Positions 20,065-48,893 of a DNA stretch of 64,000 nucleotides are shown here, piece after piece. Each line of letters opens with the position of its first letter. Positions within the stretch are counted from its first letter, which is position 1. Under the pieces are notes generated by a model. The model made no database searches, was not told where the DNA came from, and saw only the letters and a program-made list of their open reading frames with translations. Both the position numbers and the translations under genes were made by a program. Source of the stretch: Klugiella xanthotipulae (GTDB lineage Bacteria; Actinomycetota; Actinomycetes; Actinomycetales; Microbacteriaceae); NCBI RefSeq assembly GCF_006716695.1, contig NZ_VFPN01000002.1, positions 682,001 to 746,000 of the forward strand, given 5' to 3'.

Positions 20065-21081
<1,017 letters not shown>

Positions 21082-21107: not shown

Positions 21108-23213
21108 CTACAGCATGCAGCTCACGCAGCCCTCAACCTCGGTGCCCTCCAGCGCCAACTGGCGCAGGCGGATGTAGTAGATGGTCTTGATACCCTTGCG
21201 CCACGCGTAGATCTGCGCCTTGTTGATGTCGCGCGTGGTGGCGGTGTCCTTGAAGAACAGCGTGAGCGAGAGGCCCTGGTCGACGTGCTGGGTGGCCGCC
21301 GCATAGGTGTCGATGACCTTCTCAGCCCCAATCTCGTAGGCATCCTGGTAGTACTCCAGGTTGTCGTTGGTCATGAACGGCGCGGGGTAGTAGACCCGGC
21401 CAATCTTGCCCTCCTTACGGATCTCAATCTTCGACGCCACCGGGTGAATCGAGGAGGTGGAGTAGTTGATGTAGGAGATCGACCCCGTGGGCGGCACAGC
21501 CTGCAGGTTCTGGTTGTAGATTCCGTGCTCCTGGATGCTCGCCTTCAGCGCGCTCCAATCCTCCTGGGTGGGGATGTGCACACCACTCGTCTCAAACAGC
21601 TCCGCCACGCGGGCGGTGGCCGGCACCCACTGCTGATCCGTGTACTTATCGAAGTACTCACCCGAGGCGTAGGTGGAATCCTCAAAGCCCACGAACGTCT
21701 CGCCGCGCTCAATCGCGATGAGGTTGGAGGCGCGCAGGGCGTGGTACACCACCGTGTAGAAGTAGATATTCGTGAAATCGATGCCCTCATCGGAGCCGTA
21801 GAAGATTCGCTCGCGGGCCAGATAGCCGTGCAGATTCATCTGACCGAGGCCAATCGCGTGTGACATATCGTTACCGTTCTCGATTGACGGCACCGAACTG
21901 ATGTGGCTCATATTACTCACGGCGGTCAGGCCACGAATGGCCGTCTCGACCGTCTGGCCCAGGTTGTCGCCATCCATTGCGGCCGCGATATTCATCGAGC
22001 CCAGGTTGCACGAGATGTCTTTGCCGATCACGTCGTAGCCGAGGTCGGCCGTGTACGTGGTGGGCGTGTTCACCTGGAGGATCTCCGAGCAGAGATTGGA
22101 CATGTTCACCCGCCCCTTGATGGGGTTGGCTCGGTTCACGGTGTCTTCGTACATGATGTACGGATAGCCCGACTCGAACTGGATCTCGGCGAGCGTCTGA
22201 AAGAACTCCCGCGCGTTGATTTTGGTCTTGTGGATGCGCGCATCATCCACCATCTCCCGGTACTTCTCGGTAACCGAGATGTCCGAGAACGGTAGCCCGT
22301 AGACTCGCTCCACATCGTAGGGCGAGAAGAGGTACATATCTTCATCGTTCTTGGCCAGCTCAAAAGCGATATCGGGCACCACAACACCCAGCGAGAGCGT
22401 CTTAATGCGGATCTTCTCGTCGGCGTTCTCGCGCTTGGTATCCAGGAAGCGCATGATGTCAGGGTGGTGCGCACTCAGGTATACGGCACCGGCACCCTGA
22501 CGGGCACCCAACTGGTTGGCGTAGCTGAAGCTGTCTTCAAGCAGCTTCATGATCGGGATGATCCCGCTCGACTGGTTCTCAATCTTCTTGATCGGGGCCC
22601 CAGCCTCACGGATGTTGGTGAGGGCAAACGCCACCCCACCGCCACGTTTAGACAGCTGGAGCGCGGAGTTGATCGAGCGACCTATCGACTCCATATTGTC
22701 TTCGATGCGCAGCAAGAAACAGGAAACGAGTTCGCCGCGCTGTTTCTTTCCTGAGTTCAGGAAGGTGGGCGTCGCGGGCTGGAAACGCCCGGAGATGATC
22801 TCGTCAACGAGGTTGGTGGCCAGCTTCTCGTCGCCCTGGGCGAGCGCCAGGCCAACCATGACAACGCGATCCTCGTAACGCTCCAGGTAGCGCTTACCGT
22901 CAAACGTCTTGAGGGTGTACGAGGTGTAGAACTTAAACGCACCCAGGAAGGTGGGGAAGCGGAACTTCTTTGCGTAGGCCCGGTCGTACAGCGACGAGAT
23001 GAACTCGAAGGAGTACTGGTCAAGCACGGCCTTCTCGTAGTACTCGTTCTCGATCAGGTACTCCAGCTTCTCGGCCAGCGAGTGAAAGAAGACGGTGTTC
23101 TGGTTGACATGCTGGAGGAAAAATTGGCGCGCGGCCTCACGATCTTTCTCGAACTGGATCTCCCCATTCGGGCCGTAGAGGTTGAGCATCGCGTTGAGCG
23201 AGTGGTAATCCAT
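21108..23213 (-). CDS. nrdE: Ribonucleotide reductase class Ib, alpha subunit
   Basis: A 701-residue catalytic subunit. Key blocks are [19 protein letters not shown] (first active-site Cys), NLCSEI (radical-chain Cys-Glu), [25 protein letters not shown] and the C-terminal redox pair CVSCML that is reduced by NrdH. It lacks the ATP-cone, as class Ib enzymes do. The start at ATG 23213 gives [14 protein letters not shown]; a TTG 36 bases upstream, overlapping the end of nrdI, is the alternative, so translational coupling to nrdI is possible. Confidence 0.97.
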
Positions 23214-23236: not shown

Positions 23237-23638
23237 TTACTGTTGCATCCAAAATTGTTCCAATCCATTGTGAACGATCTCTACGTCGTCCGGTGTTCCA
23301 AAAACTTCGAAGCGGTACATGTGGGGTACCGCGCATTTTCTGCTGATGATGTCTCCAGCCAAACAGTAGGCCTCACCAAAGTTGGTGTTACCCGCGCCAA
23401 TCACCCCCCGGATCAGGGCGCGGTTCCCCACATCGTTCAGAAAACGGATGACCTGCTTCGGCACGGCAGCCTTGGAGGGGCCGCCACCGTAGGTGGGGAC
23501 GATCAGTACGTAGGGTTCCACCATCTGCAGAGGCTCGTCCCGCGGGTACAGGGGGATGCGATCGGCCGCTACGCCGAGCTTGCCGACAAACCGGCGAGTG
23601 TTACCCGAGACACTCGAAAAGTAGACCAGGTTGCTCAC
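23237..23638 (-). CDS. nrdI: Flavodoxin-like activator of class Ib RNR
   Basis: A 133-residue flavodoxin-fold protein that generates the oxidant for assembling the Mn2-tyrosyl radical in NrdF. FMN loop: [13 protein letters not shown]; further flavin contacts in VPTYGGG and [15 protein letters not shown]. It sits between nrdH and nrdE, the standard order, 17 bp after the nrdH stop. Length and start are typical. Confidence 0.96.
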
Positions 23639-23655: not shown

Positions 23656-23889
23656 CTACACGAGGCGACCGGCGAGTTCGTCGATCTTGTCCGGGCGGAA
23701 GCCGGACCAGTGCTCATCATCGGCGACAACAACGGGAGCCTGTAGATAGCCCAGCTCCTTGACCGTTTCAAGCGCCTTCTCGTCCACGGAGAGATCGAGG
23801 ATTTCGTAGTCGATGCCCTTGCTATCGAGGGCACGGTACGTCGCGGTGCACTGCACGCACGACGGCTTGGTATAAACAGTAATCGCCAT
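23656..23889 (-). CDS. nrdH: Glutaredoxin-like electron donor NrdH
   Basis: A 77-residue redoxin with active site CVQC and the NrdH-specific C-terminal motif WSGFRPDKIDEL. It accepts electrons from thioredoxin reductase and reduces the NrdE C-terminal disulfide. The ATG has AGGGG six bases upstream. It is the first gene of the operon; regulatory boxes begin about 120 bp upstream. Confidence 0.96.
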   Translation of the reverse strand: MAITVYTKPSCVQCTATYRALDSKGIDYEILDLSVDEKALETVKELGYLQAPVVVADDEHWSGFRPDKIDELAGRLV

Positions 23890-24009
23890 GATGACCCCTT
23901 AAAAAGTGTGTTGAGAGTAAGCCAAAATACCGAGGATAATCCCGCCCCCCGTTGGAACCGAATCTCTCTCAGATTCTACGATATGCCGTACCACCGACAT
24001 CGTCCTTCA

Positions 24010-24057
24010 ATACTACATATAGGTTCCAGCAAAGGGAACGACCACTAGATGATGTAG
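24010..24057 (-). promoter_or_regulatory. Pair of NrdR boxes
   Basis: Two 16-bp sites match the NrdR box consensus acaCwAtATaTwGtgt: box 1 at 24010-24025 (core CTACATATAG) and box 2 at 24042-24057 (core CTAGATGATGTAG). They start 32 bp apart, three helical turns, which is the usual spacing for NrdR pairs upstream of ribonucleotide reductase operons. Confidence 0.75.
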
Positions 24058-24071
24058 TTACATCTCTGTAG

Positions 24072-24113
24072 TTTTCCACCTGTTATCCACGAGTTATCCA
24101 CCAGTTATGAACA
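24072..24113 (+). promoter_or_regulatory. Array of four DnaA-like boxes at 11-bp spacing
   Basis: Nonamers TTTTCCACC (24072), TTATCCACG (24083), TTATCCACC (24094) and TTATGAACA (24105) are in the same orientation and exactly 11 bp apart. The consensus is TTATCCACA. A fifth, CTATCCACA, lies at 24160-24168. The array lies 15 bp beyond the NrdR boxes, so it may couple nrd expression to replication initiation. Confidence 0.65.
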
Positions 24114-24254
24114 GGTCGCGACCTGTCAAAACGGCATCAAATCAACGCAGTTTTCAGAACTATCCACAGGCTCCCCCGGGAAGAAGAATTTGCAACCTGT
24201 TTGATGACCCGGCGTGTCGCCACCACCACCCTTCGTGGTGCCGCGAGGGCACTA

Positions 24255-24270
24255 CCACTACATGTAGTAG
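24255..24270. promoter_or_regulatory. Third NrdR-like palindrome
   Basis: Contains the perfect 12-bp palindrome ACTACATGTAGT and matches most fixed positions of the NrdR consensus, but is alone and about 200 bp from the pair. It could be an auxiliary site or chance. Confidence 0.4.
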
Positions 24271-47628: not shown

Positions 47629-48573
47629 TTAGTGGAGGGCGAGTTCTCCCGGCGCCGGCTGGCGCTGGGAGTTCATCTCACGGTAGTACGCGTTCTCTTT
47701 CTCGATGGGTGTGAGGTATCCGATCGAGGAATGCAGCCGGTTCTCGTTGAACCAGTGCACCCAGGACAAGGTAGCGAGTTCGAGGTCGTCGGCGCTGCGG
47801 AACGGGCCGTCGATTTTCACGCACTCGGTCTTGTAGAGGCCGACGACGCTCTCGGCGAGGGCATTGTCGTAGCTGTCGCCGACGGTTCCGATCGACGCGA
47901 TCGCACCAACTTCAGCGAGCCGCTCGGTGTAGCGCAGAGCCGTGTATTGAGAGCCAGCGTCCGAGTGTTGAATGACTCCCGTGACGTCCTCGCCAGCCTG
48001 GTCCCGAACCCACAGCGCCATCTCGAGCGCGTCCAGCGGCAGATCGGTCGACATCTTCGACATTGTCCGCCAGCCGACGATGCGACGGGAGAACACGTCG
48101 GTGACGAACGCGGTGAACGCCATCCCCGACCACGTCGGCACATATGTAAAGTCGACCACCCAGAGTTCGTTCGGCCGATCAGCGTGAAACTCGCGCTTGA
48201 CGTGATCCTCTGCCCGCGGCGAAGAGTCATCGGGACGGGTAATGATGAACTACCGGCCCCTGCGAATGCCGCGCAGCCCCTGCTGACGCATGAGGCACTC
48301 GACCGTGCAACGGGCGACAGTGATGCCCTCACGGCGTAGCAGCCGCCAAACTTTGCGCGCGCCGCTGATCCCGCGACCGAATTTGCCGTCCCAGAACACC
48401 CGCTCGATCTGGACCACCAACTCGGCATCGGAGACCGCTCTGGCCGAGGCTGGCCGCTTCTTGAAAGCGTAGTAACCGGACGGAGCGATCTTCACCCCGT
48501 GCTCGGAGAGCACGCGGCAGATCGGCTCGGCCCCGTGCTGGTCACGATGGTCATCGATGAACTGAACTACCAC
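47629..48573 (-). pseudogene. IS3-family transposase OrfB with internal stop codon
   Basis: Catalytic DDE integrase. The N-terminal HTH_21 part (FIDDHRDQHGAEPICRVL to MRQQGLRGIRRGR) ends at TAG 48250-48252; the same frame then continues FIITRPDDSSPRAEDHVKRE and the catalytic domain with D in WVVDFTYVP, D in IQHSDAGSQY and E in NALAESVVGLYKTE. A single CAG-to-TAG change would explain the break, as relatives usually have Gln or Lys here. Unless suppressed, no full transposase is made. Confidence 0.85.
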
Positions 48574-48893
48574 GGCAGTCGCGGGTCGAGCTCCCGCGCG
48601 AAGAAACTCGACGCAGCGAGCAAGATCTCGTTCGCCCGCTTCAGCTCACGCACTTCCGCCTCGAGCTGCTTGATCCGCTGTCCATCGTCTGTCGTCGTGC
48701 CCAGGCGTTCGCCCGCGTCGATCTGAGCCTGTTTGACCCAACCACGCAACGTGTCTGGATTCACCCCGACGCGCTGCCCGATCCGGATCACTGCCTGGTT
48801 CACAGACAGCTCGGGGTCTTCCTTTCGCGCCTCCTGCACGAGCCGCGTAGCTCGCTCCCGCAACTCCTGCGGATACTTCCTCAAAGCTGGCAT
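48567..48893 (-). CDS. IS3-family transposase OrfA (HTH protein)
   Basis: A protein of about 108 residues with an HTH_Tnp_1 fold (RKYPQELRERATRLVQEAR, VNPDTLRGWVKQAQ) and a C-terminal leucine-zipper-like coil (QLEAEVRELKRANEILLAAS). It overlaps orfB by a few bases in the -1 frame, the usual arrangement for programmed frameshifting to an OrfAB fusion. ATG 48893 has GAGAGG upstream. Confidence 0.9.
   Translation of the reverse strand: MPALRKYPQELRERATRLVQEARKEDPELSVNQAVIRIGQRVGVNPDTLRGWVKQAQIDAGERLGTTTDDGQRIKQLEAEVRELKRANEILLAASSFFARELDPRLPW

Follow-up and report, generated by a model that had tools for sequence, protein, structure and literature searches.

Upstream of the nrdHIEF operon of Klugiella xanthotipulae, we observe a row of DnaA boxes that all lie on one strand and in one helical phase, and whose near end runs into a palindrome that also accompanies DnaA boxes at oriC and in the gap between the convergent rhomboid and crgA genes. 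Judged from its sequence, this region is quite probably a replication-linked promoter of nrdHIEF that is controlled by DnaA and NrdR and has a module in common with the origin. The window, by which we mean the whole stretch of 64,000 nucleotides analysed here (G000:C2:682001-746000), is part of a genome of 2.98 Mb and carries the operon on its minus strand (Table 1). The best 80 matches to NrdE are 83-87% identical to it over the best segment and come from Leifsonia, Cryobacterium, Agromyces, Agrococcus, Microbacterium, Arthrobacter and others, which places the organism in or beside the Microbacteriaceae, a family of bacteria from soil and plants. By a PF02867 search, nrdHIEF is the only locus found for a ribonucleotide reductase (RNR) large subunit, and because the same search gave no match in the control, Corynebacterium glutamicum, a species that has a class Ib RNR, a second enzyme in the organism's own genome may have been missed. 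Elsewhere in the window, there is an Rfam match to the ALIL pseudoknot (48481-48608, minus strand).

Table 1. Features of the nrdHIEF operon and its upstream region, in window coordinates
Feature	Position	Strand	Remark
nrdF, class Ib RNR small subunit	20065..21039	-	name from sequence and gene order
nrdE, class Ib RNR large subunit	21108..23213	-	sole PF02867 match found in the genome
nrdI, flavodoxin-like	23237..23638	-	name from sequence and gene order
nrdH, glutaredoxin-like protein	23656..23889	-	77 aa
Putative -10 TAGTAT	24010-24015	-	inside NrdR-like box 1; presumed promoter
NrdR-like box 1	24010..24025		12/16 positions; holds the putative -10; block conserved in the relatives' alignment
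NrdR-like box 2	24042..24057		11/16 positions; 16-bp spacer from box 1
Palindrome AGTTACA-TCTC-TGTAGTT (other strand AACTACA-GAGA-TGTAACT)	24056..24073		also at oriC and in the rhomboid/crgA gap
DnaA box 1 TTTTCCACC	24072..24080	+	nearest nrdH; overlaps the palindrome by 2 bases; box at the same place in relatives
DnaA box 2 TTATCCACG	24083..24091	+	read from sequence
DnaA box 3 TTATCCACC	24094..24102	+	read from sequence
Weak DnaA-box-like nonamer TTATGAACA	24105..24113	+	two mismatches to TTATCCACA; altered in G003 and G023
Distal DnaA box CTATCCACA	24160..24168	+	88 bp (8 x 11) from box 1; ninth base A
CGACACGCC motif	24211..24219	-	enriched upstream of nrdH in relatives
Distal third NrdR-like box CCACTACATGTAGTAG	24255..24270		13/16 positions; ~245 bp upstream of NrdR-like box 1

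A phased row of boxes on one strand

The five nonamers lie on the plus strand, antisense to nrdHIEF, at offsets of 0, 11, 22, 33 and 88 bp, and their steps of 11, 11, 11 and 55 bp place all five in a single helical phase. Four like-oriented nonamers at 11-bp steps and a further one at 24160 had been claimed in an earlier note on this DNA, and both direct reading and shuffling bear this out. None of 335 dinucleotide shuffles of the window contained a three-box 11-bp array with at most one mismatch per box to TTNTCCAC, and none contained a four-box array with at most two mismatches per box; a looser three-box array, with up to two mismatches per box, appeared in 36 of the 335. The description of the row as a regular four-in-a-row array holds for three good boxes, but the nonamer at 24105 is weak and the strict spacing is not general across the family. 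An exact match to TTNTCCAC is seen in three of the four tandem boxes, and one or two positions separate the nrd boxes from TTATCCACA. Since the organism's own oriC stretch carries TTATCCACA twice and TTTTCCACA once, the nrd boxes are of the type that the organism uses. The pair TTATCCACnnGTTATCCAC has a single exact occurrence in the genome, in the nrd control region. DnaA of Escherichia coli favours boxes 2-3 bp apart, including those at nrdA and nrdD (PMC11317965, in excerpt), a pairing that is present in the window as 11-bp steps and in 16 pairs of relatives as steps of 10-12 bp.

The boxes are kept in orientation and helical phase in related nrd promoters of the Microbacteriaceae, so the conservation on which the earlier note had made its claim depend is found. 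From 80 named loci we counted 58 of Microbacteriaceae type and 19 of Arthrobacter type, having dropped L068 and L087 for their short upstream stretches and L078, in which no nrdH was found. Between -350 and -100 of the 58 Microbacteriaceae-type nrdH promoters, exact boxes number 112 antisense to nrd versus 7 sense, where 0.5 per strand would be expected from the remainder of the same loci; 56 of the 58 promoters have at least one exact antisense box and 39 have at least two. Box-to-box distances follow a period of 10.8-10.9 bp, with R = 0.87 for 50 pairs (chiefly one from each genus) and R = 0.85 for 73 pairs from all these loci and the window; none of 5000 uniform-distance controls reached this strength for either set, and related species in these counts are not independent. 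The ninth base is A in 25 of 39 distal boxes, as in the organism's own oriC boxes, and C in 27 of 39 proximal boxes, a split that suggests one strong site and several weaker ones. A divergent siderophore-interacting gene in the window was also considered as the target of the row and was rejected, as it has no match in the 80 named loci.

Only the window's clade has the consecutive 11-bp run: G000, G003 and, apart from one altered box, G023. Upstream of nrdH, a tandem 11-bp pair (one mismatch allowed) is present in ten genomes of the family, from 60 genomes of which 32 had an nrdH match that was used, and other family members have boxes that are phased at varying multiples of about 11 bp. Exact boxes near nrdH are absent from the family members G010, G013, G026, G039 and G040. 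The 19 Arthrobacter-type promoters contain 6 exact antisense boxes (0.4 expected), and the looser TNNTCCAC occurs in them 23 times antisense versus 10 times sense (2.1 expected). In the distant family f22, none of 14 promoters has an exact DnaA box within 600 bp and all 14 have an NrdR-like box; the second copies L259 and L260, with neither boxes nor NrdR-like sites, were left out of the promoter counts for f22 and for the family. An NrdH match was present in 24 of 197 genomes drawn from the class. The few boxes of Arthrobacter type and their absence from the f22 promoters indicate that control by DnaA would be lineage-specific.

Across 99 genomes, the tandem pair TTNTCCACnnnTTNTCCAC, allowing one mismatch, occurs at 113 places versus 29 for its reversed control. 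The 70 places that fall within the family comprise 24 on the 3' side of dnaA (oriC), 13 upstream of nrdH in the ten genomes above, 2 upstream of dnaA and 31 elsewhere. This classification used 54 of 83 nrdH matches, the weaker ones being left out, and 83 of 99 dnaA matches, with the family members G005, G013 and G015 left out; contig ends were unjoined, so that the others may include a few misassigned places, such as in G010 and G013.

The palindrome at nrdHIEF, oriC and the rhomboid/crgA gap

In an alignment of 21 promoters, a block AACTACA-N4-TGTAAC stands directly at the proximal box, and a similar block occupies the oriC spacer of relatives. The exact palindrome pattern AACTACAnnnnTGTnAC occurs 36 times in the 99 genomes versus 7 times for its reversed control; the 31 family places are 13 nrdH promoters, 11 origins and 7 sites elsewhere. 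The organism's own genome holds two exact occurrences, at oriC and at nrd, and one mismatch adds 7 further matches versus 7 in the control. The best match is exact in 54 of 96 nrd promoters and has one mismatch in 22, two in 14, three in 4 and four in 2, whereas the reversed pattern comes below two mismatches in none of them and reaches two in 2. For 38 oriC loci, the corresponding counts are 9 exact, 23 with one mismatch, 4 with two and 2 with three, versus none below two and 7 with two for the reversed pattern. Upstream stretches shorter than 130 bases were dropped from this survey, and matches inside the dnaA coding sequence were removed from the oriC count. The named loci centred on nrd amount to 919 kb, and every one of their 77 palindromes with at most two mismatches lies within 800 bp upstream of nrdH. 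The window together with 200 kb around the organism's own oriC yields matches at nrd, at oriC, in the rhomboid/crgA gap and at C1:1222825, the last with two mismatches and without a DnaA box. In two f6 genomes, which are probably Micrococcaceae, a TTATCCACA box is joined to a relative of the palindrome with two mismatches, and this fusion apparently lies upstream of dnaA (L151:176 and L161:177).

Tracing the other places of the patterns led to the gap between the convergent rhomboid and crgA genes, which in the organism's own genome lies about 12.6 kb from oriC (C1:1239679-1239728; L326). It contains TTATCCACA, TTATCCCCA 12 bp further on, an inverted weaker box and the perfect palindrome GAACTACACCGGTGTAGTTC. 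A sample of 13 genomes was chosen regardless of any prior match, and 12 of them were judged, crgA lying outside the stretch used for G032; a TTATCCACA box together with the palindrome (at most two mismatches) is present in the gap in 10 of the 12 and absent in G010 and G013. Five further genomes that had been found through the patterns (L221, L306, L307, L308 and L311) were excluded from this count. Since the genes converge and no promoter is expected between them, a role like that of datA or DARS is a reasonable guess for this module. Those E. coli sites are likewise non-coding clusters of DnaA boxes; the rhomboid/crgA module, a candidate by its sequence, differs from them in that sequence and in its partner site. 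DARS2 of E. coli also requires IHF and Fis sites (PMC4585315, in excerpt).

A further cluster of DnaA boxes precedes dnaB in the organism's own genome (C1:1186744-1186977; L323). At least four boxes with at most one mismatch occupy the 420 bp upstream of dnaB in all eight genomes in which the gene was found, a number that 2.4% of 1800 random windows of that length reach. Five of the eight count as unbiased, since G019 and G029 were met through the pair pattern and the organism's own cluster through a box scan. The cluster of G025 has no exact box, and the stretches used from G032, G049, G014, G006, G046 and G033 yielded no dnaB. One more small cluster lies at C1:1128634-1128791 (L321). An extra-origin cluster of DnaA boxes is also known in Streptomyces. 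The earlier note missed the clusters at rhomboid/crgA and before dnaB, as it did the oriC-shared palindrome and the NrdR-like boxes.

The nrd boxes might mainly titrate DnaA or alter its nucleotide state, in the manner of datA or DARS, with any regulation of nrd incidental. Five boxes within 97 bp and the related module between convergent genes, where no promoter is expected, would suit such a sink. However, the nrd row in relatives abuts the palindrome and the NrdR-like boxes, much as a promoter element would, and the divergent siderophore-interacting gene of the window is unmatched in the named loci. We thus regard a sink as an unlikely primary function, and titration by the nrd boxes as possible but secondary to a role in the nrd promoter.

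Slightly less likely still is that another regulator binds the boxes or the palindrome. For the boxes, their likeness to those of the organism's own oriC speaks against this. For the palindrome we considered MtrA, which is encoded in the genome and which binds oriC in Mycobacterium tuberculosis and Streptomyces venezuelae (PMC5487470, in excerpt). The nrd and oriC copies of the palindrome contain one GTnAC half-site each, and binding of MtrA to a single half-site has been detected by SPR (PMC13189361, available part); moreover, G015, which has no MtrA over the cut-off and no nrdH, is without the oriC palindrome at two mismatches. On the other side, MtrA sites are described in the same available part as direct repeats (PMC13189361), but no direct repeat of GTnAC is seen here. 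A direct-repeat scan of 21 mtrA promoters gave a match in one and weighs on neither side. The other exception among the 16 genomes searched, 14 of which have MtrA over the cut-off, is the fragmented draft G037, and it keeps the oriC palindrome with one mismatch, so that the presence of MtrA is no guide to its role here. The organism's own rhomboid/crgA copy is a perfect palindrome without GTnAC, and this symmetry favours a symmetric dimer and disfavours MtrA. NrdR itself is a poor candidate for the binder: the half-site ACTACA resembles that of NrdR, but the 4-bp insert speaks against it. We tentatively suggest, giving it somewhat less than even credence, that a putative dimeric DNA-binding protein partners DnaA at oriC, at the datA- or DARS-like rhomboid/crgA site and at the nrdHIEF promoter in Microbacteriaceae.

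The DnaA boxes and palindrome in common with oriC could also mark a second replication origin or a remnant of one. This is very improbable, as dnaA and dnaN are not adjacent to the row, the single dnaA match of the genome and oriC are on another contig than the nrd region, and similar boxes precede nrdH in many genera. Chance or a low-complexity repeat, which the short and similar tandem units might bring to mind, has a negligible likelihood given the shuffles, the conservation, the one-strand bias and the periodicity.

NrdR-like boxes and a proposed mode of control

Twin NrdR boxes separated by 15-16 bp are the rule in the RNR operons of Streptomyces coelicolor (PMC12051234, in excerpt), and the two NrdR-like boxes next to nrdH follow this spacing. 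Against a set of consensus forms they show 4 and 5 mismatches; box 2 scores weakly, with 20 matches of equal or better quality in the window, and is backed by its position and by the relatives' alignment. The genome contains an nrdR gene (TIGR00244 over cut-off). NrdR-like boxes at 4 mismatches are absent from 7 of 78 promoters, and in L034 the site taken as NrdR box 1 sits at -360. A distal NrdR-like site is present in 22 of the 78 promoters, and in 15 of these (7 of Agromyces type, 7 of Arthrobacter type and the window) it lies 233-246 bp upstream of NrdR box 1; at the background rate, 0.163 per kb, about 0.2 such sites would be expected in this 14-bp span. Of the four consensus forms in this search, one had been shaped on distal boxes known beforehand. 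A DNA loop between the distal and proximal NrdR-like boxes is conceivable as a speculation.

The CGACACGCC motif at 24211-24219 is enriched before nrdH in relatives: CGACACGC occurs there 79 times sense versus 6 times antisense in the 58 loci, with 1.07 expected per strand, and 34 times sense versus 0 antisense in the 19 Arthrobacter-type loci. WhiA, with its GACAC motif, is a candidate binder.

In the mechanism that we propose, DnaA would first occupy the distal, consensus-like box at 24160. ATP-DnaA would probably then fill the lower-affinity in-phase boxes from 24105 to 24072 cooperatively, along one helix face. The end of the row abuts the palindrome, which would be bound by a symmetric protein acting also at oriC and at rhomboid/crgA, and the DnaA row and this protein would jointly set the strength of the nrd promoter. 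From the putative -10 we infer a start near 24003. Relative to it, the palindrome would span about -53 to -70 and the row about -69 to -110, and the distal box would cover about -157 to -165. In general, NrdR shuts its promoters when dATP is plentiful. Here it would repress through the twin boxes over the promoter, possibly helped by the distal box, and would likewise shut the promoter at plentiful dATP. We lean slightly toward activation of the nrd promoter by moderate DnaA occupancy, because the row, with the distal box (about -70 to -165), leaves the presumed promoter uncovered; as this depends on the presumed start site, activation versus repression is uncertain. Such activation is described for nrdAB of E. 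coli, where DnaA can activate or repress, and high ATP-DnaA represses (PMC8203912, in excerpt).

Relation to known systems and meaning

The region combines elements that are known separately from other RNR operons. The NrdR-regulated operons of S. coelicolor have the same twin boxes and spacer (PMC12051234, available part), and unlike them the region described here adds a DnaA row and a palindrome. At E. coli nrdD, a region bound by DnaA holds two boxes 2 bp apart (PMC11317965, available part), but this gene encodes a class III RNR and has one pair only. The parallel with the DnaA-controlled nrdAB operon of E. coli that the earlier note drew is sound (PMC11317965 and PMC8203912, both in excerpt): a close pair of DnaA boxes upstream of that operon is bound by DnaA in ChIP-seq (PMC11317965), and NrdR boxes are also there (PMC12176259, in excerpt). 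Unlike nrdAB, the operon here is a class Ib nrdHIEF. Its in-phase row is longer, with up to five boxes, and is fused to a palindrome that oriC also carries, and a distal third NrdR-like box is present. Bacillus subtilis and Caulobacter belong to different phyla, and we know of no oriC-shared palindrome in their RNR control. The same logic applies to them, in that DnaA control of RNR genes, already known in E. coli, has been proposed in both (PMC8203912, available part).

Among the open-access papers listed, with subscription papers mostly missing, none dealt with DnaA boxes ahead of an actinobacterial nrdHIEF operon, with this palindrome or with the module in the rhomboid/crgA gap; within that literature, the phased row at an actinobacterial class Ib operon, the oriC-shared palindrome and the rhomboid/crgA module appear to be new. 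In our judgement from these papers, little is known of how Actinobacteria couple dNTP supply to the initiation of replication. In this organism, nrdHIEF, oriC and a third locus near oriC have DnaA boxes and the palindrome in common, a pattern that suggests that the supply of building blocks is wired to replication control. If the proposed mechanism is true, the control of RNR by DnaA would extend to the class Ib enzymes of an actinobacterial family, and candidate accessory sites would be at hand for an actinobacterial origin. Should the putative dimeric partner of DnaA also prove true, then initiation, DnaA control and dNTP supply would be coupled in the Microbacteriaceae through one common module.
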